DNA of 64,000 nucleotides from Bacteroidales bacterium (GTDB lineage: Bacteria > Bacteroidota > Bacteroidia > Bacteroidales > P3). Shown here piece after piece: positions 23,662 to 55,344 of this stretch; position 1 is the stretch's first letter, and the number at the start of each line of letters is the position of its first letter. The position numbers and the translations under genes were made by a program. The notes beneath the pieces are model-generated. The model was not told the DNA's origin and ran no database searches. It worked only from the letters and a program-made list of their open reading frames with translations. The stretch covers positions 1 to 64,000 of the forward strand of contig JAFSOU010000069.1 in the NCBI GenBank assembly GCA_017443265.1, read 5' to 3'.

Positions 23662-24762
23662 ATGGGATTTTTCAAGAAAGTAAAAGACGGTTTGCTGGGA
23701 ACCGACGGCACTGGTGGCGGCAGCGGTCAGCAAGGGGTGATAACGGCACAAGAGCTCGTAGATCAGGCATTCGAACATTTCAAGATGCGGCTGAATGATT
23801 CCTCGACCGACATGAGCCTGCTTTTCCCCACAAGCATGATAATATATCTTAATCCGGAGGACTACAACGCACGAAAACAAGAATTTCCGGCACGTGCCAA
23901 CGACATCAAGAAAAAATGCATGAAGGAGGTCCGCACCCAAATCAGCGGCAATCCCGAATGGCAGGACTACATACCACATTCCAAATACTGGAAAATACAG
24001 TTTGTTGAGTTCAAGCCAGAATGCGTGATAAGTTCCGACACCGACACACATTTCTCTGTCGAGAAAGGACATGTGATGATTGTCTCCGACCTCTATGCCA
24101 ACGATTTGGGCGAATCCATCGGCGACAGCGCATCGTCGGGCGGACGCGTGGTAACCACGGTGCACAACATAAAAGGCACCACATCTTTGCAGAACCTTGC
24201 CATCAACCCCGACGCCTTCAAAGACGTAACAATATTGGGACAGAACTGTTTCCGCATAGAGTTTTTGCGCTCCGACCTCGCCGACACCACCAAAAACAAC
24301 AAACAGTCGGCGCCTCTTCACACTCAGACTCCACCGGCCTCCAATAATTATGACATAGCCACAGGCGTTTACAATGGCAACACGTCGAAACAGTCGAATT
24401 CGACCCCAAAAAAAGTTGCCGCCGAGCTGCAGATTTGGGACAGCTATTTCCTTGTAAACGGCCAAAAAGCCGACAAATACATCATAGAATCGGAAAAATT
24501 GCAGATAGCAGGCCCCAACGCCAATGCAAGCACCGACGGAGCTGAGCTGCTTAAAATCGATGACGACAGCATAATGAACCCGCATCTGAACATAAGATAC
24601 GACAACACAAACCAACGCTACCTCATTTCGGCTGTTGGCGACACAAAGCTCAACACACGGATTCTCGAGCGCAATGCCGACAACTGGTCCGAACTGCCCA
24701 ACAACTCGACAATTCTTTTAAACGGAGATATACAATTAAATTTCACTTTGAAAAATGTTTGA
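23662..24762 (+). CDS. FHA-like protein with FhaA-type N-terminal region
   Basis: A 366-residue cytoplasmic protein. It starts with a short amphipathic GFFKKVKDGLLG helix. Residues ~25-145 (TSMIIYLNPEDYNARK, then WKIQFVEFKPE) are reminiscent of the N-terminal DUF3662 region of actinobacterial FhaA; this is inference from pattern only. After a Thr/Asn/Ser-rich linker, residues ~255-366 look like a degenerate FHA domain: it keeps a DDDSIMNPHLNI segment comparable to the SxxH strand but lacks a clear GR motif. FHA domains bind phosphothreonine. The ATG at 23662 has an AGGAG element 8 bases upstream, unusual for this genome. The gene overlaps a small membrane-peptide gene and precedes a PP2C phosphatase. 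Confidence 0.65.
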   Translation: MGFFKKVKDGLLGTDGTGGGSGQQGVITAQELVDQAFEHFKMRLNDSSTDMSLLFPTSMIIYLNPEDYNARKQEFPARANDIKKKCMKEVRTQISGNPEWQDYIPHSKYWKIQFVEFKPECVISSDTDTHFSVEKGHVMIVSDLYANDLGESIGDSASSGGRVVTTVHNIKGTTSLQNLAINPDAFKDVTILGQNCFRIEFLRSDLADTTKNNKQSAPLHTQTPPASNNYDIATGVYNGNTSKQSNSTPKKVAAELQIWDSYFLVNGQKADKYIIESEKLQIAGPNANASTDGAELLKIDDDSIMNPHLNIRYDNTNQRYLISAVGDTKLNTRILERNADNWSELPNNSTILLNGDIQLNFTLKNV

Positions 24763-24838
24763 CATAATTTTATTGATAGCCATAGCCCTTTTGGTGGCTT
24801 TTCTGGCGAAAGAACATTTCACTAATTATCCCAGATAA
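24755..24838 (+). CDS. 27-residue single-span membrane microprotein
   Basis: A short open frame, ATG at 24755 to TAA at 24836-24838. The first 18 residues are almost wholly hydrophobic (MFDIILLIAIALLVAFLA), followed by a short polar tail with KEH and PR, as in a one-span membrane peptide. It overlaps the last 8 bases of the FHA-like gene (+1 frame) and ends 11 bases before the PP2C start, so it fills the gap exactly and would be translationally coupled to both. No family is recognised. Position and composition support it as real, but there is no homology evidence. Confidence 0.5.
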   Translation: MFDIILLIAIALLVAFLAKEHFTNYPR

Positions 24839-24849
24839 ACAACAACAAT

Positions 24850-25965
24850 ATGAAAGAGATGAAATACTACGGCGAGACCAATATGGGTATGCGCCGCACC
24901 AACAACGAAGACGCTTTCGTGGCCCAGAAAATCTGGAACGACCGATTCATACTTTGCATAGCCATCGACGGGGTGGGTGGCTACGAGGGTGGCGAAGTGG
25001 CCGCCCAAATTGCTCAAGACTATATCCCCAAACACCTTGCCAGCGTTACCAACGACAACCCTCTCGAAGCCCTGAAAGAGGCTGTTGTGGAGGCCAACAA
25101 CCGAATCTGCGCCGAACGTCAGCGCGACACTTCGCGTCCTAACATGGCATGCGTGCTCAGCGCCGGCATTATCGAACTCGACAACAACGTCATCGACATA
25201 GTGCACGTGGGCGACTCCCGTATCTACCGATACGAAAACGGCAATCTCGAAAAGATAACCCACGACCACTCGCTGGTGGGCTACCGCGAAGAAATTGGCG
25301 AACTCACCGAAGATGAGGCCATGAACCACCCGCAACGCAATATCATCGACCGACTGCTGGGCGACACTCCGCATTCCACCACCGACCGCAACTTTTTCGA
25401 GGCCGCCAAATACCCCCTCGACGAAAACACACAGCTGCTTTTCTGCTCCGACGGACTCACCGACCTCGTCACCAGCGCCGAAATACGCGAAATTCTCGAC
25501 CAGCGCATATCCATACAGGAAAAAACCAAACTGCTTATCGACAAAGCCAACGCCAAAGGCGGCAAGGACAACATCACCGTGGTGCTTGCCATTGCCGAGA
25601 ATCCCAACGCCAAACCAAAACAAGCCGTTGTGGAGCCTCCGCGCCACCAACAGGAGAACAATATTGAAGATCGGCCCGCAGAAGGCAAGAAATCGCGCAA
25701 AACGCTGTGGATATGCCTTATTGCCCTGTTGCTAATAATAGCAGCCTTTGTGGGAGGCAATTTCTTGGCTACCAAAGGCGTGGTTTGCGTGCCACAGTCG
25801 CCGTCCCCAAACAAAGAAGCAGATACCACCATACTCAAAAAAGATTTAGATTCGTTGAATGGGTTGCTGAAAGAAGCCAACGACACCATTAATGAATTAA
25901 AAGGAAGAATAGAGGATGCGCGAAACTCCTTGTCGAATCCCCCAAAACACATAGCAAAACACTAA
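24850..25965 (+). CDS. membrane-anchored PP2C-type Ser/Thr phosphatase
   Basis: Metal-dependent protein phosphatase of 371 residues, similar in layout to PstP/Stp1. The catalytic domain (about 5-250) has the metal ligands and motifs in order: RRTNNEDAF (Asp21), IDGVGGYEGGE (Asp40, Gly41), VGDSRIYRY, CSDGLTD (Asp201) and GGKDNITV (Asp240). A basic, glutamine-rich linker leads to one transmembrane helix at about 286-308 and a ~60-residue extracytoplasmic coiled-coil-like tail. It would remove phosphates from Ser/Thr kinase targets, including the two kinases encoded downstream. The extracytoplasmic tail distinguishes it from soluble PP2Cs and resembles the anchored actinobacterial form. Confidence 0.92.
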   Translation: MKEMKYYGETNMGMRRTNNEDAFVAQKIWNDRFILCIAIDGVGGYEGGEVAAQIAQDYIPKHLASVTNDNPLEALKEAVVEANNRICAERQRDTSRPNMACVLSAGIIELDNNVIDIVHVGDSRIYRYENGNLEKITHDHSLVGYREEIGELTEDEAMNHPQRNIIDRLLGDTPHSTTDRNFFEAAKYPLDENTQLLFCSDGLTDLVTSAEIREILDQRISIQEKTKLLIDKANAKGGKDNITVVLAIAENPNAKPKQAVVEPPRHQQENNIEDRPAEGKKSRKTLWICLIALLLIIAAFVGGNFLATKGVVCVPQSPSPNKEADTTILKKDLDSLNGLLKEANDTINELKGRIEDARNSLSNPPKHIAKH

Positions 25966-26057
25966 AAAAAAAACAAACGCAAAAATACAAAAACTCTGAC
26001 ACATCAGTAGAATAAAGTGAGCCAGAAGGTTGATAGTTTATTTCCAAAATTTACGGA

Positions 26058-29000
26058 ATGATGAAACGTAAAAACAACGGTTTTATACCACTTCTATTTG
26101 TAACCATAGTCCTATGCTTCGGTTTTATCACACTATACCACAACCAAAGCGCCTTTCTGAAAACGGTAGATGAGAACTACAAGACAAAACGTTCCGTCAA
26201 CTTGGAAAAAGGACTTCCGGCCACGGTGCTTAGCGAATTCCTTGTCAATCAGGACTATGTGAGCGACCGTCGCGACGCCGATTTCATTGCCAAACAGCTG
26301 ACCTCAAAAATAGACAGCGGCTACGCTCTGCCCAACCTCGGCGCCATCAACACCAGCCTATACAAGGTGCGTGCCTCGCTGGCCGACTCGCTGGGAGGAG
26401 CCCTTTTCCGAAGCCGTTGCATGGCATCCCGCGAAACCCTTGGCCTTGACCAAAACGTGCGGGCTCTCTACGCCAACCCAGGACTGCTGAAAACCGACAC
26501 TTTCCCGCACAGCGCAGGCAACAAAGAGCTGAAAGTAAAAGTGTTCCAAACAGACACTACCAACACTTTCTTTAACAGATTGCGAAAAAAAGTAGGCAAG
26601 CCAAAGAAAAAACCTGCCGCAGGAGTGCTTGTGTGCCTGCGTCAGCACGAGCTGGTGTATGCAAAACAAATAACCATCGACGGCAAGGACACCAACGTCA
26701 GATACACCGACACCACGGCACACGACACCGTTGTGGAATACGCTTTCACAAACAAAGAAGGGGAGGTGTCGTTCAAAATCTACGACAGCCTCAACTACAG
26801 CGTGTTGCCCGTAAAAGCAGGCTTCAACTACGGCTCGCCGAAAGGCACTTTGAAAAACAAAAAATTCGTTTTCACCGAAAGTCCTGACAAGATAAAACTT
26901 TTCGACACATACACCTACAAACGCCTCAAAGACGACGGGGCACTGACGGTGCGCACACCTAAGACCTACCGCAACTATCTGATTATCGCCTTTTTGCTAT
27001 TTGTGGCCATGTGGTGGCTGCTCTACGGCTTTGTATTGGCGCGCGACCGCAACACCAAACGCCAGAGCGACACCCTTATTATGGCTCTGCTGATGACCCT
27101 TACAGGCTTGGGACTGCTGTCGAAATTCGCGCTTGTCAATCCCGTTTCCGACAAATTGTTGGGCTGGGATACGCTCGTTGGCACCGTAATTGGCCTTGTG
27201 GCGATGATATTGATAGCCCGTTTCGATATGGTTAAGTTCTACAACAGCGGTATGCGGATTTTAGGTGTTTCGGTGGATTTCGATTTCGTGATGCAGTTTT
27301 TCCGCTGGTGCGGACTGCCTTTCGGCAAAAAATTGGACAATTTCAGCAACGACATACAGCGTCGTACACGCAACAGTTCCCTGCAGCTGTTCTGCAAACT
27401 GCTGTTTCTGTTGGTTCTGTTTTTCCTGCTGCCGGTTATTCTGCTTGTCAAACTGATAACATTTGTTTGTTCCAAAATTCCCAAAATCAGGGATTTAAGC
27501 GTGCCTCACGGTTTTGGTTATATGTTGCTGGCGTTGGCTTTGCTGGTGCTTCTGTTTTTCTTCGGTTCAGGCCCCGAAGGCAGCAACGCCAAGGTTAACC
27601 TCGGCCCGATACAGGTGAGCGAGCTGGCCAAACTGCTTACGATGTTCTTTGTGGCGGCTTTCTTCGCCGAGAACTCCGACACCCTTCAGGCTTTCGCCGA
27701 CAAGCAGTCCATTTTCGGGATGCGTCAGGTGAAACTGGTGCTTTTCATCCTTGCCTTTATGGTTGTGATGATGGGCGTTGCCGTGATGCTGAGCGACATG
27801 GGTCCCGCCATAGTGGTGATACTCTCGTTTATACTCATCTACAGCGTTGCCCGTCGCGACACAGTGCAGATGTTTATCGGCGTGGTTACCTTTATAGCAA
27901 TGCTTTTCCTTGCCTATCTGTTCAACCATTCCATAGGACTGATGGCCGTGGCCGCACTGGTGTGGCTTGTGGCGTGGGTAGCAATTAGTTGGACTCGCGG
28001 CAAACGCATCTACGAAAGTGCCGTTTTCTTCAACCTCATCATAGTGGCCTTCCTGTTCGGCGGTCCTTTGCTCGACACCCTTGGTTTCCACAACGAGGCC
28101 GAGCGTCTTACAAGCCGCAACGAAATGGTTTGGAGCGGTGTTTGGAACAACGATGTCAAAGGCGGCGACCAAGTGGCGCAAGGCTACTGGGCATTGGCCA
28201 GCGGCGGTTTATCCGGTCAGGGCTTGGGCAGCGGCCATGCAAGTGTGGTGCCCGCCTGCCATACCGATATGATTTTCACCAGCATAGGCGAGGAAATGGG
28301 TTGGATAACCCTTTTGCTGATAGTGCTTTGCATGGCGCTTTTGGTACACCGCGGACTGCTTATAGCACGCAAGGCGGGCAACCGTTTCGCTTTCTTCCTT
28401 GTGGCAGGTCTGGCCACGGTTACAGGCATACAGTTCCTTGTTATAATTTTAGGCAGTCTCGGACTTATACCGCTAACAGGCGTGGCGGTGCCGTTCCTGA
28501 GCTACGGCAAGTCGAGCATTGTGGTCAATATGATTGCCTTCGGGTTCATACTCTCGCTTTCGCGCGAAAAAGCCACCGAGCGTCAGGCGGAATATATACG
28601 CAGCAAATACGACGGCATCATAGCCGCCGGCAGCGCATCGTTCATAGCCGTGGGATTATTCATTGTCTGCTGGCTGTTCGCCTACCAGTTCTTCGCACGC
28701 GACAACACCCTTATCCGTCCCGCCTTTGTCACCAACAACCAAGGAGCCCGTGTGGCCGAGTACAACCCACGCATCGACATACTGATGCGAAAACTCGCCG
28801 CAGGCAACATCTACGACCGCAACGGCGTTGTGCTTGCCACCAGCGTGGACAGCATACTTGACAACAAAATGGTCGTGGATAAAATTGTGGAAGCCGGTAT
28901 CTCGGCCGAAGATGTGAAAAAAGCGCACCGTTACCCCAAGATGAGGTACTATCCTTTCGGCGACCAGATGTTCTTTATGTTGGGCGATTTCAACACAAAG

Positions 29001-30470
29001 GTGCTGTGGGGCAGCCACGACGACAATCCCTACGGCTACATGGCCGAAAGCCGTCATCTGGCAATGCTGCGCGGTTTCGACAACATAGCCCGCGACGAAT
29101 ACGGGAAACCCCGCAGAGACGTGCTAAGGGCGCGCAACTATATCTACAGTCCTTACCTTGCCGAACGCGGAGAGAAAGAGTTCCGCTACACACGCTACGA
29201 CTATTCGGCGCTTCTGCCCATGCTAAAAGCCGGCACCGAAAGCCGCAAGGTGCGCCAGTGGAACGAAAAACGTCCCGAACGCGACATACGACTGACCATC
29301 GACGCCAAACTGCAGGTGCGTATGCAGAACGCCCTTCAACAGTTCGCCGACACGCGCAAAAACAACTATATGCGTGTGTCCGTTGTGGTACTCGACGCCG
29401 CAAAGGGCGACCTGCTGTGCTCGGCAAACTACCCGTTGCCCAACCAGGACACACTTGTGGCAAAGAGCCGACTGCCATATTACAGCGACAACTTCAAAGA
29501 TTTCAAAGCCTATACCGACCGCGACCTTGGCACCACTTACCAGACCCAACCCGGTTCCACGGTCAAAGTGATGTCGGCTATGGCTGGATTTATGAAATTA
29601 GGCTCCGAAGCCACAGGCAAGTCATATATGGTGTATAGCGAGGAGAAAATCGACACCAAGCTTGGCGAGCCTACAGGAAATGTCAATCTTCACTCAGCCA
29701 TAGTGCAGTCGTCGAACTGCTATTTCGTAAATTCGGTGAACGACCAAAACTTATATACACAGCTCGGCGAGATATACAAAGCCACCGGCGTGCGTATCGA
29801 CCGCGAGGCCATCGACAAACGCGGACGCACTGTCATCGACAAATCGCTGACACCATATTTCTTCTACACCAGCAATATGTCTGACACAACCGTGTTCAAC
29901 GCCGAGGTGTCGGCCACCAGCCAACGCGGCACACATAAGTACAACAACTATATCGAACGACGCTCAAAAAAACAGCAATACGAAAAAATGAACTGGAGCC
30001 ATTGTGCTTGGGCGTGGGGACAGGGCACTTTGCGCGCCACACCTCTCAATATGGCACGTGTGGCTTCTATTGTGGTAAACAATGGCACTCTGGCACAGAC
30101 TCGTTACCTGTACAACGATTCGCTTCCACAAACCAATGTGTGCCCCAATTCGCTCGAACAGCTCAAATCGTATATGAAAGACCAAGCAAAGCTGAAAGCC
30201 GGAATCTCAAATCCCGCTATCGGCGGAAAAACCGGCACACCTGAACGTTCTCACGTTGTTCGCAACAGCAAAGGCAGAAAGGTGAAAACCAGCAAAAACG
30301 ACGCTTGGTACATCTTCTTCGTCGATAGCGACGGCGTAAAACAAAACAAAGCCAGCAAACTAGCCGTGGCAGTACGTATCGAAAGAGCTAACTCCACGTC
30401 GAGCCTCGCTATGCAACTATCACGCACTCAGGTTATTCCAATTCTTACAGAAACGGGATACATGAATTAA
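26058..30470 (+). CDS. fused SEDS glycan polymerase and class B penicillin-binding protein
   Basis: A single uninterrupted 1470-residue frame. One transmembrane helix (about 8-26) leads into a ~275-residue predicted periplasmic domain that I do not recognise. Residues ~305-860 form a polytopic SEDS (RodA/FtsW) domain with SELAKLLTMFF, LSDMGPA, candidate catalytic aspartates in NNDVKGGD, YWALASGGLSGQGLG and TDMIFTSIGEEMGW. A further helix (about 865-885) joins to a PBP2/PbpA-like transpeptidase with Y-D-R-N-G-V-V-L-A, and all three active-site motifs: Ser1167-T-V-Lys1170, S1218-S-N1220 and K1391-T-G1393. It therefore could both polymerise and cross-link peptidoglycan. The usual arrangement is two separate interacting proteins. 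It sits between the phosphatase and a second FHA gene. Confidence 0.9.
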   Translation: MMKRKNNGFIPLLFVTIVLCFGFITLYHNQSAFLKTVDENYKTKRSVNLEKGLPATVLSEFLVNQDYVSDRRDADFIAKQLTSKIDSGYALPNLGAINTSLYKVRASLADSLGGALFRSRCMASRETLGLDQNVRALYANPGLLKTDTFPHSAGNKELKVKVFQTDTTNTFFNRLRKKVGKPKKKPAAGVLVCLRQHELVYAKQITIDGKDTNVRYTDTTAHDTVVEYAFTNKEGEVSFKIYDSLNYSVLPVKAGFNYGSPKGTLKNKKFVFTESPDKIKLFDTYTYKRLKDDGALTVRTPKTYRNYLIIAFLLFVAMWWLLYGFVLARDRNTKRQSDTLIMALLMTLTGLGLLSKFALVNPVSDKLLGWDTLVGTVIGLVAMILIARFDMVKFYNSGMRILGVSVDFDFVMQFFRWCGLPFGKKLDNFSNDIQRRTRNSSLQLFCKLLFLLVLFFLLPVILLVKLITFVCSKIPKIRDLSVPHGFGYMLLALALLVLLFFFGSGPEGSNAKVNLGPIQVSELAKLLTMFFVAAFFAENSDTLQAFADKQSIFGMRQVKLVLFILAFMVVMMGVAVMLSDMGPAIVVILSFILIYSVARRDTVQMFIGVVTFIAMLFLAYLFNHSIGLMAVAALVWLVAWVAISWTRGKRIYESAVFFNLIIVAFLFGGPLLDTLGFHNEAERLTSRNEMVWSGVWNNDVKGGDQVAQGYWALASGGLSGQGLGSGHASVVPACHTDMIFTSIGEEMGWITLLLIVLCMALLVHRGLLIARKAGNRFAFFLVAGLATVTGIQFLVIILGSLGLIPLTGVAVPFLSYGKSSIVVNMIAFGFILSLSREKATERQAEYIRSKYDGIIAAGSASFIAVGLFIVCWLFAYQFFARDNTLIRPAFVTNNQGARVAEYNPRIDILMRKLAAGNIYDRNGVVLATSVDSILDNKMVVDKIVEAGISAEDVKKAHRYPKMRYYPFGDQMFFMLGDFNTKVLWGSHDDNPYGYMAESRHLAMLRGFDNIARDEYGKPRRDVLRARNYIYSPYLAERGEKEFRYTRYDYSALLPMLKAGTESRKVRQWNEKRPERDIRLTIDAKLQVRMQNALQQFADTRKNNYMRVSVVVLDAAKGDLLCSANYPLPNQDTLVAKSRLPYYSDNFKDFKAYTDRDLGTTYQTQPGSTVKVMSAMAGFMKLGSEATGKSYMVYSEEKIDTKLGEPTGNVNLHSAIVQSSNCYFVNSVNDQNLYTQLGEIYKATGVRIDREAIDKRGRTVIDKSLTPYFFYTSNMSDTTVFNAEVSATSQRGTHKYNNYIERRSKKQQYEKMNWSHCAWAWGQGTLRATPLNMARVASIVVNNGTLAQTRYLYNDSLPQTNVCPNSLEQLKSYMKDQAKLKAGISNPAIGGKTGTPERSHVVRNSKGRKVKTSKNDAWYIFFVDSDGVKQNKASKLAVAVRIERANSTSSLAMQLSRTQVIPILTETGYMN

Positions 30471-30471
30471 G

Positions 30472-30589
30472 TTGAAAATTGAAAGTTGAAAATTGAAAGA
30501 TATAGGTCAAAAGTCTAAAGTCAAATGTCAAAGGACTAGTGACCATTGACCGAAGACAAATTACTAATCACTAATCACAAATCACTAAA
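30472..30589. repeat. intergenic degenerate repeats
   Basis: The gap before the second FHA gene consists of TTGAAAATTGAAAG phrases, then AGTCTAAAGTCAAATGTCAAAG, then ACTAATCACTAATCACAAATCACTAA. The last is the reverse complement of the phrase near 5015-5058. No promoter box was found here, so the gene downstream is probably read from upstream. Confidence 0.65.
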
Positions 30590-30593
30590 AAAT

Positions 30594-31658
30594 ATGAGCA
30601 CCTTTTTTGACAAAATAAAGAAATTCCTTAACCCCACCGACGAGCCGGAGGTGGAACAAAGCTCGGCAAACGTTGACACCCGTGAAACAAAAAACGAGGC
30701 TCAGCCTGCCAAACAGAACGCCACACCCGTGGAAACGCCGAAAAACGACACCCAATATGCGCCAGCTGAACCTGCTGAACCAGAACCAGTTGCAACTGCC
30801 GAAAATATAGAAAAGAGTGGGGTGGAGGAAACTCCGAAAAACGACACCCAACAACCTTCATCCACCACAGAGGCAAAGTCGGAACAACAACAGCAAACCG
30901 CACCGCAGAGCGCCCCCGCTGGCCCGAAAACCGACGAAGTGTCGGCACCGCAAATAAGGGCATCGGTGATAAAAAATGTAGTACAGATGCTAAAACCCCT
31001 GCTGGGCAAGGACGATTTCAAAGGCATCGCTTTCTATGTGGAACAGCACAACTACGCTCTGACTTTGGACAAGGAGTTTGAAAAACTGCTCCGTATCCAA
31101 TTCGACGACATGGGGTTCAGATCGCTCGGCAGCGGTAAAATAGAAGTGTTTGAAAGACCGTCGTCGGCCGACGCCCACAATGTGTACCGCGACATAATCT
31201 TCGCCGAAATCATCACCAAAGAATCCAACATACACCACGCACCGCGCAAGGCACGCATAACTGTTTTCCGTGGCAAAGGCAGCCTGAAACAAACGGAATA
31301 TATCCTCGACACCGCCGTTGACAACAAAAAAGTGTATTGTATCGGACGTGGCGAAATAAGCACCAAAGGCGGAGTGTTCCGCGACAACGACATTGTGATA
31401 AACGAAGCCGAACCCGATCCCGCCATCGCCAACCTCAACAACTACGTGAGCAGCTCCCATGCCAATATCGAAGTGCGCGACGGCGGTTTCTATCTTAAAG
31501 CCATGCAGGGCGGCATAGCTAACGGCAACGCCACCAAGTATATCCGCGACGGCAAGGTGTTCAAACTCGAGACCGACTCGATGTCGTACCCCCTTCGCGA
31601 CGGCGACCTTATCGAACTCGGACGCTCCGTGCTGCTTAAATTCGAAATTCTTATGTAA
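30594..31658 (+). CDS. FHA domain protein with Pro/Glu-rich linker
   Basis: A 354-residue cytoplasmic protein. The N-terminus (STFFDKIKKFLN) is an amphipathic helix like that of the first FHA gene of the locus. Residues ~20-130 are low-complexity, rich in Pro, Glu, Thr and Gln, and include the octamer ETPKNDTQ twice. A globular middle domain (about 135-240) is followed by an FHA domain (about 245-354) with the diagnostic IGRGEIS, YVSSSHANIEV and LRDGDLIELG strands. It should bind phosphothreonine peptides made by the downstream kinases. The start is the ATG preceding STFFD; an upstream in-frame TTG falls in repeat sequence. The next gene begins 15 bases after its stop. Confidence 0.87.
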   Translation: MSTFFDKIKKFLNPTDEPEVEQSSANVDTRETKNEAQPAKQNATPVETPKNDTQYAPAEPAEPEPVATAENIEKSGVEETPKNDTQQPSSTTEAKSEQQQQTAPQSAPAGPKTDEVSAPQIRASVIKNVVQMLKPLLGKDDFKGIAFYVEQHNYALTLDKEFEKLLRIQFDDMGFRSLGSGKIEVFERPSSADAHNVYRDIIFAEIITKESNIHHAPRKARITVFRGKGSLKQTEYILDTAVDNKKVYCIGRGEISTKGGVFRDNDIVINEAEPDPAIANLNNYVSSSHANIEVRDGGFYLKAMQGGIANGNATKYIRDGKVFKLETDSMSYPLRDGDLIELGRSVLLKFEILM

Positions 31659-31673
31659 CAACAATCGCAAGTC

Positions 31674-32447
31674 ATGAAAAAAATACGTTTATTCGCCCTT
31701 TTGGCCGCAATACCTTTGGTAATGCATGCCCAAGGCCCCAAGCCGATAGTCAACGACACCGTTTGGGTGCGGGGCATTCCCATTGTGTTGGTCAAAATCG
31801 ACGCCGGCACGTTCCAGATGGGTGCCACCACGGAGCAGAGCGTGGCAGCCAGCCGCGATGAGAAACCCGTTCACAGCGTAACCCTCGGCAGTTATATGAT
31901 AATGCAGACCGAAGTAACGCAGGAGCTATGGCAGACCATAATGGACAACAACCCAAGCCCGTTGAAAGGCAGCAACAGGCCCGTGCACAACGTCAGCTGG
32001 TACGACTGCATGGAGTTTATCGAAATGCTTAACGCCGTAAGCGGACGCCAATTCCGTCTGCCCACCGAAGCCGAATGGGAGTACGCCGCTCGTGGCGCCG
32101 AACGCAGCAAAGGCTATAAATTCTCCGGCAGCAACAACGCTGAAAAAGTGGCGTGGAACGCCGAAACCCTCGGTGGCGCCGAGCTTTATTACGTACAGCA
32201 GAAAATGCCCAACGAACTCGGTATCTTCGATATGAGCGGCAACGTGTGGGAGTGGTGTTCCGACATCTACGGGGCCTATTCCGACAAGGCACAGACCAAC
32301 CCCGCCGGTGCCGAAGCAGGGGAGAACCGCGTGCTGCGCGGTGGCAGCTGGCAGACACCACGCAACAAATGCCGCGTAAGCTGCCGTACCAACGCCATAC
32401 CCTACGAACGCCGCGAAGAATACGGATTCAGACTGGTGCTGGAATAG
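31674..32447 (+). CDS. exported SUMF1/FGE-fold protein, probably non-catalytic
   Basis: A 257-residue protein with a signal peptide (cleavage after H-A-Q near residue 20) and a formylglycine-generating-enzyme-like fold: GTFQMGA, EVTQELWQ, PVHNVSWYDCMEF, RLPTEAEWEYAARG, GNVWEWCSD and RVLRGGSW. The paired cysteines that form the catalytic site of true FGEs, expected shortly after RGGSW, are not in the usual arrangement here (the segment reads WQTPRNKCRVSC), so formylglycine formation is doubtful. In Bacteroidota this fold often serves as a structural or binding module. It lies 15 bases after the FHA gene and 58 before the kinase gene, so it is probably part of the same operon, acting on the periplasmic side. 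Confidence 0.87.
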   Translation: MKKIRLFALLAAIPLVMHAQGPKPIVNDTVWVRGIPIVLVKIDAGTFQMGATTEQSVAASRDEKPVHSVTLGSYMIMQTEVTQELWQTIMDNNPSPLKGSNRPVHNVSWYDCMEFIEMLNAVSGRQFRLPTEAEWEYAARGAERSKGYKFSGSNNAEKVAWNAETLGGAELYYVQQKMPNELGIFDMSGNVWEWCSDIYGAYSDKAQTNPAGAEAGENRVLRGGSWQTPRNKCRVSCRTNAIPYERREEYGFRLVLE

Positions 32448-32505
32448 TTGAAATTGAAAGTTGAAAATTAGATTATTACTAATTGCTAACTACTAATTAA
32501 AAAAC

Positions 32506-34803
32506 ATGGCTTCGATAAACGACGAATACGAAAAACTGATGCTGATAGGGCAGGGGAGTTTTGCCAGCATCTGGAAAGTGCGCCACCGCAAATACGGCTA
32601 CATCCGCACACTTAAGATACTCAACACCCCCGTACAGGACGAAAACGACCATGCCTACCAGCAGTTCGTAAAGGAATGCACCGTGCTGCTGAATATCGGC
32701 AACGGTGCCAACTACAACATTGTGCACATATACCAGCCGCGGCTTATCGACAACCGTGCTGTGGTGGAGATGGACTTTATCGACGGCGAGACACTCGACC
32801 AGTACCTGAGGCGCAACAAGTTTATGCCCATCGACGAGGTGATGCGCTTTATCGGCGACATAGGCGGGGCTTTGGCATACTGCCACCACGACATATACAA
32901 ATACATGATGAATCCCAACGAGGACGACCTCAAGTCGGACCCAGACGACGGCCGACGCTACATCATCGACGAAGCCACCGAACAACGTTTGGTGCGGAAA
33001 TACTCCGTAACCCACAACGACCTGCACAGCAACAATGTGATGCGCCGCGAAAACGACGGCAGCTACGTGCTATTGGATTTCGGCTTGGCCATACAAAATG
33101 GCACAGCAGTGAAATCCAGCGCAATGCGTGGTGGAGCTTTGGAGTATATGGCTCCCGAAAAGTTCGACGACAACAACGTTATCACCACCCAGAGCGACAT
33201 CTACAGCTTTGGCATACTTATGTACGAAGCCCTTGCCGGACGAGTGCCCTTCGAAATCGATAAAAAACGCCTTTCCAGCAACCCCGTTATGGCGCAATAC
33301 GAAATAATGCAGCAGCATAAAACGGGCATACCGCCCGAAATAGAGCCCCTGCGCCGCGAGGCTTTCGAGGCCGCAAACCCCGGACAGGAGTATGTGAAGG
33401 ACTTCCCCGACTGGCTGGAGCAGATGATAATGCGCTGCCTCGAAAAAGACCCCGCCCGCCGCTACACCGACGCCAAGGAACTTATGAATGAGTTTTATAG
33501 TAATAGGCGTGTGTTTGTTGATGAAAACTCGTTATCTGAAAGAGTTAATACACAATTAGACAATAACAATTACGATGTTTTTATTTCGTTTTCGACCCAA
33601 GATAGCGTTATCGTTGACAAAATATGCAATTATTTGGAAAAGACTGGGTTGAGATGTTTTGTATGTACTAGGGACATACCAAAGAGTGTTGTTTGGGCTG
33701 AGGCTATCACAGAAGCTATAGAAAATTGTAAGATGTTTCTTGCTGTTTTTTCCAAGCATTTCGATGATTCCAAGCAAACAGACCGAGAATTGGAACTCGC
33801 TTCGGAAGCTGCCCTACCAATAATTTGTTGCCGGATAACAAATGATGAAATGACTGGCGCAACAAAATATTATTTAAAAAATATCAATTGGATTGATGCC
33901 TATACTGATACTGAAGCTGGATTTTGCAAAATACTAGCTGAAATACAACGCATTAATGGTGAAAATTTTGTAAAAGACAAACCACAGCCAACGGATTTTA
34001 GTCTTGTGTCCTGCCCCGGCTGTGGCAAAATGATAAGCAAAGAGGCATCGTTCTGTCAATATTGCGGTTCCCATCTACATTCATCCGACGGCAACAAGCA
34101 GGTGAAATGCAACGGCTGTGGCAATTTGATAAGCAGTGATGACAAAGAATGTCCATATTGCGGCTATCCGGATTGTACACAGGAATCAAAACAAGGAGTC
34201 CGCAAGACACCAGATTCAACACAAAGTGTCAGCGGCAAGAAAAAATCCAAAAAATGGGTTGTTTGGCTGGTGCTTGGCATTGTCTTGACAGTGCTTGCGA
34301 TAATAGGCGTGGGGATAGCTTTGTTAGATAATAATGTACCAGAAGAGTGGACTGAAACTGAAGAAGCTAGTGATACTTTGGAATTCGTTGACCTTGGTCT
34401 GCCCAGCGGAACAAAATGGAGCAACATTAATCAGACAAACCCCAACGACAGTTACGATTTCTACACCTACGACGAGGCAGTGCAGCAGTTTGGCGACCAA
34501 CTGCCCACAAAAGCGCAGTTCGAAGAACTAAAAGAAAAGTGCGTCATAGTATGGGACGAATCTGCTCGTGGTGCTCGTGGCTGTAGGTTTTATGGCCCCA
34601 ACAACAACAGCATTTTTATTCCCTACGCGGGCTACCGCGATTGCAATGGCGGTGTGAACGGCGTGGGTTCCAGCGGCAACTATTGGTCGTCCACGCCCGG
34701 CGTTTCGGAGCTCGCGTGGAACCTCTACTTCTATTCGGGCGAAGTGTACGTGAACGGCAACTCTCGGTGCTGCGGGCAGTCCGTGCGCCTCGTCCAAGAT
34801 TAG
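32506..34803 (+). CDS. Ser/Thr kinase with TIR, zinc-ribbon and lectin-like domains
   Basis: A 765-residue multidomain protein. Residues 1-325 are a Hanks-type kinase: GQGSFASIW loop, Lys37, THNDLHSNNV (Asp172, Asn in place of the HRD arginine), DFG 191-193 and GGALEYMAPEKF, plus a ~35-residue insertion before the catalytic loop. Residues ~356-485 are a TIR domain (YDVFISFSTQD, CFVCTRDI, DRELELASE). Two four-cysteine zinc ribbons follow (about 503-522 and 535-553), then one transmembrane helix (about 583-606) and an extracytoplasmic C-type-lectin-like module (about 624-765, starting VDLGLPSGTKW and ending QSVRLV) of a kind common in Bacteroidota. The TIR-coding part is visibly richer in A+T than the kinase part. 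The kinase half is a close paralogue of the next gene. Confidence 0.88.
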   Translation: MASINDEYEKLMLIGQGSFASIWKVRHRKYGYIRTLKILNTPVQDENDHAYQQFVKECTVLLNIGNGANYNIVHIYQPRLIDNRAVVEMDFIDGETLDQYLRRNKFMPIDEVMRFIGDIGGALAYCHHDIYKYMMNPNEDDLKSDPDDGRRYIIDEATEQRLVRKYSVTHNDLHSNNVMRRENDGSYVLLDFGLAIQNGTAVKSSAMRGGALEYMAPEKFDDNNVITTQSDIYSFGILMYEALAGRVPFEIDKKRLSSNPVMAQYEIMQQHKTGIPPEIEPLRREAFEAANPGQEYVKDFPDWLEQMIMRCLEKDPARRYTDAKELMNEFYSNRRVFVDENSLSERVNTQLDNNNYDVFISFSTQDSVIVDKICNYLEKTGLRCFVCTRDIPKSVVWAEAITEAIENCKMFLAVFSKHFDDSKQTDRELELASEAALPIICCRITNDEMTGATKYYLKNINWIDAYTDTEAGFCKILAEIQRINGENFVKDKPQPTDFSLVSCPGCGKMISKEASFCQYCGSHLHSSDGNKQVKCNGCGNLISSDDKECPYCGYPDCTQESKQGVRKTPDSTQSVSGKKKSKKWVVWLVLGIVLTVLAIIGVGIALLDNNVPEEWTETEEASDTLEFVDLGLPSGTKWSNINQTNPNDSYDFYTYDEAVQQFGDQLPTKAQFEELKEKCVIVWDESARGARGCRFYGPNNNSIFIPYAGYRDCNGGVNGVGSSGNYWSSTPGVSELAWNLYFYSGEVYVNGNSRCCGQSVRLVQD

Positions 34804-34845
34804 ATGGCCGTGCGCGCCAGAGCACGGACAAAAGGCATCAACATT

Positions 34846-34883
34846 TGTAAAGGCTGTTCGGGCTCTGCCCGGCAGTCTTTACA
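34846..34883 (+). other. imperfect long hairpin after kinase gene
   Basis: TGTAAAG at 34846-34852 pairs with CTTTACA at 34877-34883, and the interior also pairs (CTG/CAG, CGGGC/GCCCG) around a TCT loop. It follows a smaller CGTGC/GCACG hairpin (34809-34826). The 34804-35169 gap contains no gene; it holds these hairpins, a terminator, a long palindrome and the promoter box of the next kinase. Confidence 0.6.
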
Positions 34884-34897
34884 TATAAATATCAAAT

Positions 34898-34920
34898 AAC
34901 GCCGTTCCGGCGTTTTTTTT
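34898..34920 (+). terminator. rho-independent terminator
   Basis: A 7-bp stem (AACGCCG with CGGCGTT, loop TTC) followed by eight T. It ends the transcript of the first kinase gene, so the second kinase needs its own promoter. Confidence 0.85.
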
Positions 34921-34949
34921 ATCCCGTTTCATCCCAATTCCGTCCCCCG

Positions 34950-34985
34950 GGGTGTAGAGACGTTTCCTGAAACGTCTCTACACCC
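34950..34985. repeat. 17-bp perfect inverted repeat (REP-like palindrome)
   Basis: The arms 34950-34966 and 34969-34985 are perfect reverse complements (GGGTGTAGAGACGTTTC and its partner), separated only by CT. There is no T-run, so it is not a simple terminator. From memory, palindromes with a GTAGAGACG core occur as dispersed repeats in several bacterial phyla; only one copy is seen in this window. Confidence 0.75.
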
Positions 34986-35096
34986 ACCCACAAAAAAATC
35001 GCGCCAAATGTATTAAAACAAAAGCGTAATATCCTAGCAATCCCGTTTCAAAAAAATGTATCGTTGCACAATTCACTTTTTTTTCGTAAATTTGCA

Positions 35097-35104
35097 ACGC
35101 ATTT
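35097..35104 (+). promoter_or_regulatory. -7 box TAAATTTG for second kinase
   Basis: Exact TAnnTTTG match about 65 bases before the second kinase start, after a T-run (TTTTTTTTCG) of the type that precedes several promoter boxes in this window. A -33 element is not clear. Confidence 0.65.
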
Positions 35105-35169
35105 TGCGGCAAGAAAAAAACACACACAACCCTCGCAAATGCCCATAGACAAACGAAAAACAACAGGAT

Positions 35170-37122
35170 ATGTCCTTTTTGAACAAATACGAAAAACTCC
35201 AGCTGATAGGCAAAGGCAGCTTCGCCACCATCTGGAAAGTGCGTCATGAGAAGTACGGATACATCCGCGCTTTGAAAGTCTCCAACGAGATGGTTGAAGA
35301 TGAGAACGACCCCGCCTACCAGTCGTTCCTCAACGAGTGCAAGGTGCTTCTTAAAATAGGCAACGGTTCGCATCCCAACATCGTGCATATCTACCAGCCC
35401 GACCTTATCGACAACCGTGCCGTGGTGGAGATGGACTACGTGGAGGGCGAAACAATGGAGAAATACCTCTCCCGCGTCAAATTCGTTCCCATCGACGAAT
35501 TTTACCGTTTTTTCGACGAGATTGTCGGCGCTTTGGCATATTGCCACCACGACATCTACCGTTTCCTTATGGACCCCAACGTCGATGACCTCGTTACCGA
35601 CCCCAACGACGGACAAAAATACATCATCGACGAAGCCACCGAACGCCGCCTTGTTGAGAAATACGGCGTCACCCACAACGACATACACTCCAACAACGTA
35701 ATGCGCCGCAGCTACGACGGCAATTTCATACTCCTCGACTTCGGCTTGGCCATTCAGGACGGCAAGGCCGTGAAAAGCAGCTCGCGAAGGGGAGGGGCTC
35801 TGGAATATATGTCGCCCGAAAAGTTCGACGACAGCAGCATAATCACCACACAGTCCGATATTTACAGTCTCGGTGTGCTGTTGTACGAAGTCCTTGCCGG
35901 ACGTGTGCCGTTCCAGATGGACCCCAAACGCTATTCGAGCAACCCCACCGCCGCCGGATACGAGATTATGACAGCCCACAAAACTGCCGTGCCGCCTCCC
36001 ATAGAACCCCTGCGCCGCGAGGCTTTCGAAAAAGCCCATCCAGGCGAGACATACGTCAAAGACTATCCCGACTGGCTTGAAGATTTGATAACCCGTTGTC
36101 TGGAAAAAAATCCCGCCAACCGTTTTGCCGACGCCAAACAGCTTCTCGACGAATACAAAGCCAAGAAAGCACTGGGAAACGACACGGTCTCTTCCCGCAC
36201 TTTCCCCACAAGCGCTCCGGCACCGAAAATCGAAGAGCCTGTCGAAAACAAACTCTCCGACACAACAATTCCCACACCTCCTCCAATGCCTCCGCGACCG
36301 GGTGCAAGGACCAACCCTCCCGTAACGCCACCCCCGCAAAGAGTTACACCTCCTACCAAAAAGAAAAAGTCACACGCTGGTCTGATCGTATTTCTGATAC
36401 TGCTGTTTTTGGCACTGTTGGGAGTAGGCGGTTATTTCGCTTACCAGTGGTACGAAGATTCGCAGTACGCACATTATTATACATACGTATCGAGCCTTAA
36501 CCTGCGCTCGTCGCAGAGTTCAAAAAGCAAGAGCAACATAATAGAAGCTCTGCCTTATGGCACAAAACTTTCCATGCTGTCGTACGGCAACGACTGGTGC
36601 GAGGTGAAAGCCAAAACCAGCAACGGTAAGCAAACAGGCTATGTGTCAACCGATTACATCCTTTCCGAGGACGATTACTACCTGCTTGACGGCATTTTCG
36701 GCAACAGCGAAGCGCGCGAAATGATTGCCGAAAAGCGTTGCCGCAAGGCGCTTCTCAACTATTTTAAAGAAAATAACTACCGTGGCGAACTCAACAACGA
36801 TGTGTATAGCGCACAAGAGCAGTTCTCCGACACCCGTCAGATTTGGCAGGTTTCGTGCTATAGCAGCAAAAGCTCATACAACTCGGTGTATTACTGCAAA
36901 GAGTACGAAAAAAATTCCAAATATAATGATATGATTGTGATAATCAGCCGCATACAGAATGGCATAACCACAGAGCGCAAATTGGTTTATTTCTATTTCG
37001 ACTCCGAAGGCAAGCCATATGTAGTGCACGAGGAAGTGCCCGATTCCGACAGGATAAAAAGTGTTTCCGTAACCACAAGTTGGTGGACCGGCAATAAAAC
37101 TTTCGATATCGAATATTATTAA
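35170..37122 (+). CDS. transmembrane Ser/Thr kinase with SH3b sensor
   Basis: A 650-residue kinase with PknB-like topology. The kinase domain (1-325) closely parallels that of the preceding kinase gene: GKGSFATIW, Lys36, THNDIHSNNV (Asp171), DFG at 190-192, GGALEYMSPEKF, and the same ~35-residue insertion before the catalytic loop. A Pro-rich linker (about 345-400) leads to one transmembrane helix (about 404-425). Outside the membrane, residues ~437-495 resemble a bacterial SH3 domain (YVSSLNLRSSQSS, NDWCEVKA, TGYVSTDYI), a fold often binding peptidoglycan, followed by a ~150-residue domain I do not recognise. Where PknB has PASTA repeats this protein has SH3b, suggesting wall sensing. It is transcribed separately from the preceding kinase. 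Confidence 0.88.
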   Translation: MSFLNKYEKLQLIGKGSFATIWKVRHEKYGYIRALKVSNEMVEDENDPAYQSFLNECKVLLKIGNGSHPNIVHIYQPDLIDNRAVVEMDYVEGETMEKYLSRVKFVPIDEFYRFFDEIVGALAYCHHDIYRFLMDPNVDDLVTDPNDGQKYIIDEATERRLVEKYGVTHNDIHSNNVMRRSYDGNFILLDFGLAIQDGKAVKSSSRRGGALEYMSPEKFDDSSIITTQSDIYSLGVLLYEVLAGRVPFQMDPKRYSSNPTAAGYEIMTAHKTAVPPPIEPLRREAFEKAHPGETYVKDYPDWLEDLITRCLEKNPANRFADAKQLLDEYKAKKALGNDTVSSRTFPTSAPAPKIEEPVENKLSDTTIPTPPPMPPRPGARTNPPVTPPPQRVTPPTKKKKSHAGLIVFLILLFLALLGVGGYFAYQWYEDSQYAHYYTYVSSLNLRSSQSSKSKSNIIEALPYGTKLSMLSYGNDWCEVKAKTSNGKQTGYVSTDYILSEDDYYLLDGIFGNSEAREMIAEKRCRKALLNYFKENNYRGELNNDVYSAQEQFSDTRQIWQVSCYSSKSSYNSVYYCKEYEKNSKYNDMIVIISRIQNGITTERKLVYFYFDSEGKPYVVHEEVPDSDRIKSVSVTTSWWTGNKTFDIEYY

Positions 37123-37190
37123 AAAACAATGCCTTGCGAGCACTGTCGAAGCAACTTGCGCGACATAGAGATTGTTTTTTCGCAGAAAAC

Positions 37191-37221
37191 TGTGAAAAAA
37201 CAATTTTTTTTCGTATCTTTG
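37191..37221 (+). promoter_or_regulatory. promoter of acyl-CoA dehydrogenase unit
   Basis: TATCTTTG at 37214-37221 with TGTG at 37191-37194 and a 19-base spacer, close to the Bacteroidota consensus. It leaves a leader of about 85 bases before the ATG at 37312. Confidence 0.65.
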
Positions 37222-55120: not shown

Positions 55121-55290
55121 TTTCAAAAACGAAAATTGGCAGGTCTTCTGACTTACTCCATCGTTTTCCGGCCTTCCCATCCGCAAAGGACAGTGGCGGG
55201 GTTGGAAACGACTTTGGCGGAGCTTACAGCAGCGGGACTGTCCGGGATTTGCACCCGATTCCCTTTTAATCGTCGTCGGTTTTTGAAACC
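55121..55290 (-). promoter_or_regulatory. cobalamin riboswitch
   Basis: On the minus strand this is a full B12-sensing aptamer. The closing stem pairs 55279-55288 with 55121-55130. In order it contains GGGTGCAAATCCCGGACAG, GCTGTAAGCT, the B12 box GCCACTGTCC followed by GGGAAGGCC, and AAGTCAGAAGACCTGCC. All are conserved landmarks of the family. It sits about 245 bases before the start of the tandem-repeat T9SS gene and should repress that two-gene unit when cobalamin is abundant. The 54877-55120 stretch between aptamer and start codon contains no gene that I see. Confidence 0.93.
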
Positions 55291-55313
55291 TCAAACGAAC
55301 CAAATTCGGACTG

Positions 55314-55344
55314 CAAAATTACAATTTTTTTTTCGATTGGCAAA
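55314..55344 (-). promoter_or_regulatory. promoter of riboswitch-controlled unit
   Basis: On the minus strand TTTG (55344-55341), a 19-base spacer and TAATTTTG (55321-55314) match the Bacteroidota consensus. The transcript would start just before the riboswitch closing stem. Confidence 0.82.

Follow-up and report, generated by a model that had tools for sequence, protein, structure and literature searches.

A Bacteroidales gene cassette that probably encodes an accessory, phosphorylation-controlled RodA–penicillin-binding protein fusion related to the actinobacterial pknB locus

A locus of the order fhaA-fhaB-pstP-rodA-pbpA-pknA-pknB has been described for Actinobacteria (PMC6554272, PMC11898655), where it is conserved, with pknB-fhaA also occurring in a subset of Firmicutes (PMC6554272). 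We read this order directly in Nocardia farcinica, and the order FHA-PP2C-RodA-PBP2-STK in Actinomyces oris (PBP, penicillin-binding protein; STK, Ser/Thr kinase). Linked pairs of a PASTA kinase and a PP2C phosphatase, of the PrkC/Stp type, are known from Firmicutes (PMC6554272). Here we describe a cassette from a Bacteroidales genome (assembly GCA_017443265.1), located at positions 23,662 to 37,122 of the first 64,000 nucleotides of contig JAFSOU010000069.1, the whole of which stretch we refer to as the window. Seven genes, all on the + strand and all as listed in a preliminary description made from the letters alone, follow one another in the order FHA1-PP2C-fusion-FHA2-SUMF-STK1-STK2, the third encoding a RodA/FtsW-type polymerase fused to a class B PBP. 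In what we consider the probable reading, the product of this locus is an accessory peptidoglycan synthase under phosphorylation control, and the locus itself is a Bacteroidota branch of the ancestral cluster that also gave rise to the actinobacterial one, its rodA and pbpA having been joined. Neither an example of the cluster in Bacteroidota nor a natural RodA-PBP fusion was found in the open-access literature, subscription papers and preprints lying outside the scope of that search.

The cassette shares with the actinobacterial locus a protein combining FhaA_N and FHA domains, a second FHA protein, a PP2C anchored by a transmembrane (TM) helix, a SEDS protein of the same branch, a class B PBP and one or more TM kinases, in nearly the same order. 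It differs in that RodA and PBP are fused and preceded by an extra N-terminal TM helix and periplasmic domain, in that the kinases lack PASTA domains and carry SH3, FISUMP/TIR or coiled-coil regions, in the degenerate pocket of FHA1, in its accessory position beside housekeeping RodA and FtsW, and in being rare, patchy and at times plasmid-borne. A PASTA kinase and separate rodA and pbpA genes, two features that define the actinobacterial locus, were looked for and not found. Like the Firmicutes PrkC/Stp systems it has a kinase-phosphatase pair tied to wall synthesis, but without PASTA domains and with the synthase inside the cluster. The RodA-PBP2 and FtsW-FtsI pairs of Bacteroidota would be expected to have the same two enzyme activities, the catalytic motifs being kept, whereas they are made from separate genes, belong to another SEDS branch and have no kinase cluster that we saw.

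The fused synthase (26,058..30,470, + strand) is a single frame of 1470 amino acids in which Pfam recognises both FTSW_RODA_SPOVE (2e-38) and Transpeptidase (5e-16). It comprises a TM helix (8-26), a periplasmic domain (~30-305, some 275 residues), additional TM helices, the SEDS part (~480-845) and the TM helix of the PBP (853-871). The periplasmic domain has no Pfam match, and its pattern resembles, by eye only, a CnaB/carboxypeptidase-regulatory-like beta sandwich. All catalytic motifs, namely D737 (in HTDM), S1167xxK1170, S1218SN1220 and K1391TGT, show no variation among nine loci; D737 lies where established RodA work places the catalytic Asp of SEDS proteins. In each of the 22 sequences compared, SEDS and PBP are encoded in a single open frame. 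The genome retains its own housekeeping RodA-PBP2 and FtsW/FtsI pairs as separate genes, both on contig C76 (SEDS genes at 1.6 and 84 kb, with the PBP genes at 3.0 and 79 kb, respectively), and the fusion is thus, as judged from its sequence, a third, accessory SEDS-class B PBP synthase with intact catalytic motifs.

Next to the synthase are encoded a phosphatase, two kinases and two FHA-type proteins. The PP2C (24,850..25,965, + strand; Pfam PF13672, 9e-15) has a cytosolic catalytic domain with its four metal-binding Asp residues intact, a single TM helix (288-306) and a periplasmic tail, and its catalytic residues are invariant in nine loci. Both kinases are recognised by Pfam (1e-36 and 3e-39), span the membrane once and keep the G-loop, beta-3 Lys, alpha-C Glu, HxD and DFG: STK1 (32,506..34,803, + strand) consists of a kinase domain, a TIR domain, two zinc ribbons, the TM helix (588-606) and a weak C-terminal FISUMP/Lcl_C match, and STK2 (35,170..37,122, + strand) of a kinase domain, the TM helix (405-423) and a periplasmic SH3_3 domain. 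The preliminary description had the kinases sensing the wall or periplasm; TM kinases are indeed present, but their sensor ends vary between SH3 (STK2), TIR with zinc ribbon and FISUMP (STK1), and coiled-coil-like stretches that in some loci flank the TM helix on both sides (by eye), and a common wall sensor is unproven. FHA1 (23,662..24,762, + strand) is a soluble protein with an FhaA_N-like N-terminal domain (~26-145) and a degenerate FHA domain (~253-363); the window copy has no Pfam match whatever, yet its earlier assignment as FHA-like is borne out by the fold of its AlphaFold model. FHA2 (30,594..31,658, + strand, with its start ATG at 30,594) has a long low-complexity N-terminal linker and an FHA domain matched by Pfam at 4e-5. 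That the FHA proteins would read phosphothreonine, as had been proposed, fits FHA2, whose GR, SxxH and N residues are all retained in the window copy, and is not supported for FHA1, in which GR is lost in Bacteroidia and, in the window copy, the Ser of SxxH as well; FHA1 proteins of outer-class loci have a canonical pocket. With the pocket of FHA1 degenerate and that of FHA2 intact in the window, phosphothreonine reading would hold best for FHA2, and FHA1 is more likely a scaffold than a reader, a role proposed for FhaA (PMC11898655).

In the working we propose, the TM kinase or kinases would phosphorylate Thr or Ser on the cytosolic face of the synthase, of a partner or of both; FHA2, through its intact phosphothreonine pocket, would dock on the mark; the FhaA-type FHA1 would serve as a scaffold linking the synthase to further envelope proteins; and the TM-anchored PP2C would remove the mark. 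Additional glycan polymerisation and cross-linking would in this way be switched on or off alongside the housekeeping RodA-PBP2 and FtsW-FtsI. Several points count against such control. In addition to the degenerate FHA1 pocket, four Bacteroidales loci have an FHA2 without the arginine of GR, kinase identity between orders is no more than 22-33%, and the beta-3 Lys is replaced by Arg in seven of ten kinases compared, that is, in all seven distant loci (L052-L058); moreover, the phosphorylation, docking and control steps, and the condition under which the synthase is used, are what we infer. Given the Lys-to-Arg replacements, the FHA1 pocket and the FHA2 arginine losses, some copies may signal weakly or by non-catalytic means. 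The main rival explanation extends this to the system as a whole, with kinase-like, FHA and phosphatase proteins mainly assembling and placing the synthase with little or no kinase catalysis, for which the MviN pseudokinase-FhaA complex of mycobacteria offers a comparison. The replaced Lys, the FHA1 pocket and the kinases of L055 and L056, which lack a TM helix, would fit it; since G-loop, alpha-C Glu, HxD and DFG are intact in ten out of ten kinases, the window kinases keep the Lys and the Bacteroidia loci consistently retain a PP2C that looks active, we regard a pure scaffold as unlikely and retain phosphorylation control as the preferred reading.

Some further observations concern the FHA and kinase families. 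Two of 20 FHA2-type proteins match a Swt1-like HEPN domain (PF18731, best 1.5e-25), probably L094:11435-12802 and L095:11479-12750, which have long N-terminal extensions; if true, this match would link a possible RNase domain to the cassette. The congeneric genome G003 has at the STK1 position only a small zinc-ribbon and FISUMP protein (L050:4074-4586), so that the kinase-TIR fusion is local. Two further kinases, 61-68% identical to STK1/STK2 and one of them with a long N-terminal extension, are encoded outside the cassette (C98 and C115; L006 and L007), and the kinase has therefore expanded in this genome. Three other kinase genes (L001, L002 and L003; C79, C23 and C14) each have as neighbour a gene on the opposite strand whose product is ~200 amino acids long, and these partners share a TLKRI motif, making this a recurring kinase-partner pair.

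Conservation in related genomes, on which the preliminary description had made its proposal depend, was tested, and the cluster proved to be kept across the phylum, though rare. The five-gene core of fusion, PP2C, FHA1, FHA2 and STK occurs together in all 18 Bacteroidia loci examined; because all of these were found via the fusion protein, the constancy of the synthase is no independent evidence. The core persists even where fusion identity falls to 29-38%, its flanks are unrelated and its genes stand in three different orders, a recurrence far above chance. Besides the order in the window, these are fusion-[0-3 small genes]-STK-[0-2 small genes]-FHA2-FHA1-PP2C in distant Bacteroidales and (STK)-FHA1-PP2C-(STK,STK)-fusion-FHA2-(STK) in other Bacteroidia. 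Of 393 Bacteroidales genomes, 2 have the PBP part, which a profile search detects in 15 of the 395 genomes of a phylum sample, and a scan of genome contigs gave at least eight named loci, all in Bacteroidales metagenome-assembled genomes; the phage records searched held no fusion. Plasmid unnamed7 of Spirosoma oryzicola carries the complete set (FHA-PP2C-STK-STK-fusion-FHA), under generic public annotation. In the outer-class loci L094 and L095, FHA1, PP2C, fusion and FHA2 are kept, with no kinase seen in L094 and with PP2C and synthase forming one protein in L095; in L093 the fusion is accompanied by FHA1 and FHA2 alone, and in L096 FHA genes are absent. The constant linkage and the PP2C-synthase fusion of L095 support the earlier proposal that kinase, FHA proteins and phosphatase would act on the fused synthase.

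A broader reading takes the cassette as a general phospho-signalling, or defence-type, system in which the synthase is a passenger or one target of many. Genes for BrxL and HsdM (BREX-like) lie 3' of the cassette in L058 (L058:15608-17382), a BrxL-like frame follows it in L053 (L053:17597-17938), kinase paralogues are found elsewhere in the genome and the Spirosoma set is on a plasmid, all of which would suit this reading; BrxL, however, adjoins only these two loci, the PP2C of L095 is joined to the synthase itself, and FHA1 and FHA2 stay with the synthase in the kinase-less L094, which leaves it improbable. The specific defence-system reading we reject, PADLOC giving generic kinase and PP2C matches only.

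The preliminary description took the locus as a convergent or transferred counterpart of the actinobacterial one; a counterpart it is, and a related one is favoured over a convergent one. In the SEDS tree all fusions fall into a single clade (100/99) whose sister group is the RodA of the actinobacterial locus, and the 20 fusions with five actinobacterial RodA of pknB-cluster type are split from 33 others (100/99), apart from Bacteroidota RodA and FtsW and from Firmicutes, proteobacterial and second actinobacterial (Nonomuraea) SEDS proteins. Approximately unbiased (AU) tests reject a grouping of the fusion with Bacteroidota RodA (p 0.009); a grouping with Bacteroidota FtsW was not excluded with the first tree (p 0.065) and was rejected with wider sampling (p 0.008), so that both origins of the fusion SEDS are discarded. 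FHA1 points the same way. FhaA_N (PF12401), a family found in only one of 14 control genomes (Corynebacterium), is detected in four of 20 FHA1 proteins (best 9.7e-6), with the window copy below detection, and hhalign places FHA1 in register with the Nocardia FhaA N-domain (0.0038, against 0.18 for FHA2 as control). For the model of the N-domain (pTM 0.69), Foldseek gives the N-domain of Mycobacterium tuberculosis FhaA (2lc0) the highest probability (0.85) at an E of 0.17, which is not significant, and among the FHA structures matched by the C-terminal half of the AlphaFold model, that of M. tuberculosis FhaA (2lc1) ranks second. Searches of FHA1 by sequence against the PDB gave nothing for the N-domain, a wider profile returning mainly FHA-domain matches, and FHA2 had no useful match to the FhaA N-domain or to FhaB. 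The PP2C has the layout of PstP, a C-terminal TM helix followed by an outside tail, in nine of nine loci, the helix at 288-306 corresponding to 298-316 in Nocardia PstP. On the strength of the SEDS tree, the FhaA_N domain, the place of the PP2C helix and the near-identical gene order, we regard convergence as much less likely than a shared origin of the cluster, whether through an old transfer or through an older ancestor. This conclusion is weakened by the long branches subtending the fusion clade as well as the actinobacterial one, by the PBP tree, in which the PBP half of the fusion forms its own clade with no specific grouping with actinobacterial PbpA, and by Pfam finding no PASTA domain in STK1 or STK2. 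Convergent assembly, in which a SEDS-PBP pair of Bacteroidota origin became fused and acquired its kinase, phosphatase and FHA partners separately, would accommodate these PBP and kinase features and the fusion of RodA to PBP, unlike in Actinobacteria, but the grouping of the SEDS half, the FhaA_N domain and an FHA1-PP2C-RodA-PBP-kinase order much alike in both phyla make it an unlikely account.

The SUMF gene (31,674..32,447, + strand) encodes an exported SUMF1/FGE-like protein (Pfam FGE-sulfatase/SUMF1, 1e-46) that had been counted as part of the system. Three of four genomes of the genus carry the cassette, with the same flanking genes where contigs allow, and in the fourth (G001) parC-GT4-SUMF is present but the core is missing; as SUMF there adjoins GT4 in the absence of the core genes, we reject it as a core member and treat it as accessory. 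Since SUMF lies inside the cassette in the carriers, loss of the core from G001 would be the simplest reading; two other genera of the family have parC-GT4 followed by neither SUMF nor the core. Contamination of the assembly is rejected, for cassette, parC and acyl-CoA dehydrogenase gene occupy the same place in the congeneric G002, and G003, whose contigs break within the fusion, has partly the same arrangement. In the window, parC and the GT4 glycosyltransferase gene lie upstream, and genes for acyl-CoA dehydrogenase and etfB/etfA downstream. Spacers measure 34-123 bp from GT4 through FHA2 and 15 and 58 bp on either side of SUMF, whereas STK1 and STK2 are 366 bp apart, with a terminator-like hairpin and T run between them (34,898..34,914, + strand); a second such hairpin lies 3' of STK2 (37,167..37,208, + strand), both being pattern matches only. 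The spacing and the hairpin before STK2 suggest that FHA1-PP2C-fusion-FHA2-SUMF-STK1 would be transcribed together and STK2 as a unit of its own. In other loci an M50B-like membrane peptidase recurs 3' of the PP2C (L053:16191-16832, L047:2264-2914 and, by eye, L054:21080-21790), accompanied by exported TPR, MORN and FISUMP proteins, a possible accessory module. Elsewhere in the window is a cobalamin riboswitch (55,121-55,319, - strand; Rfam RF00174, 112.6 bits).

Gene content, catalytic motifs, conservation, SEDS and FHA1 homology, PP2C layout and separate housekeeping pairs are what the sequences show. We lean, on balance, towards a transferable, regulated wall-synthase cassette that shares descent with the mycobacterial locus and has spread in Bacteroidota, providing a third, phospho-gated and fused synthase in a diderm, with some lineages rewired or partly free of catalysis where the kinase Lys and the FHA1 pocket are lost. 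That diderm Bacteroidota possess a homologous locus, and that it joins RodA and PBP in a single chain, suggests that control by phosphorylation moves together with SEDS-PBP synthesis as a unit. The fusion offers a single-chain SEDS-PBP for biochemistry and, being accessory, can probably be deleted without cell death, and the action of kinase, phosphatase and FHA proteins on the polymerase can be tested in cultured Spirosoma. For this gut-type Bacteroidales genome, the cassette means an extra cell-wall enzyme together with kinase, phosphatase and two FHA-type proteins.

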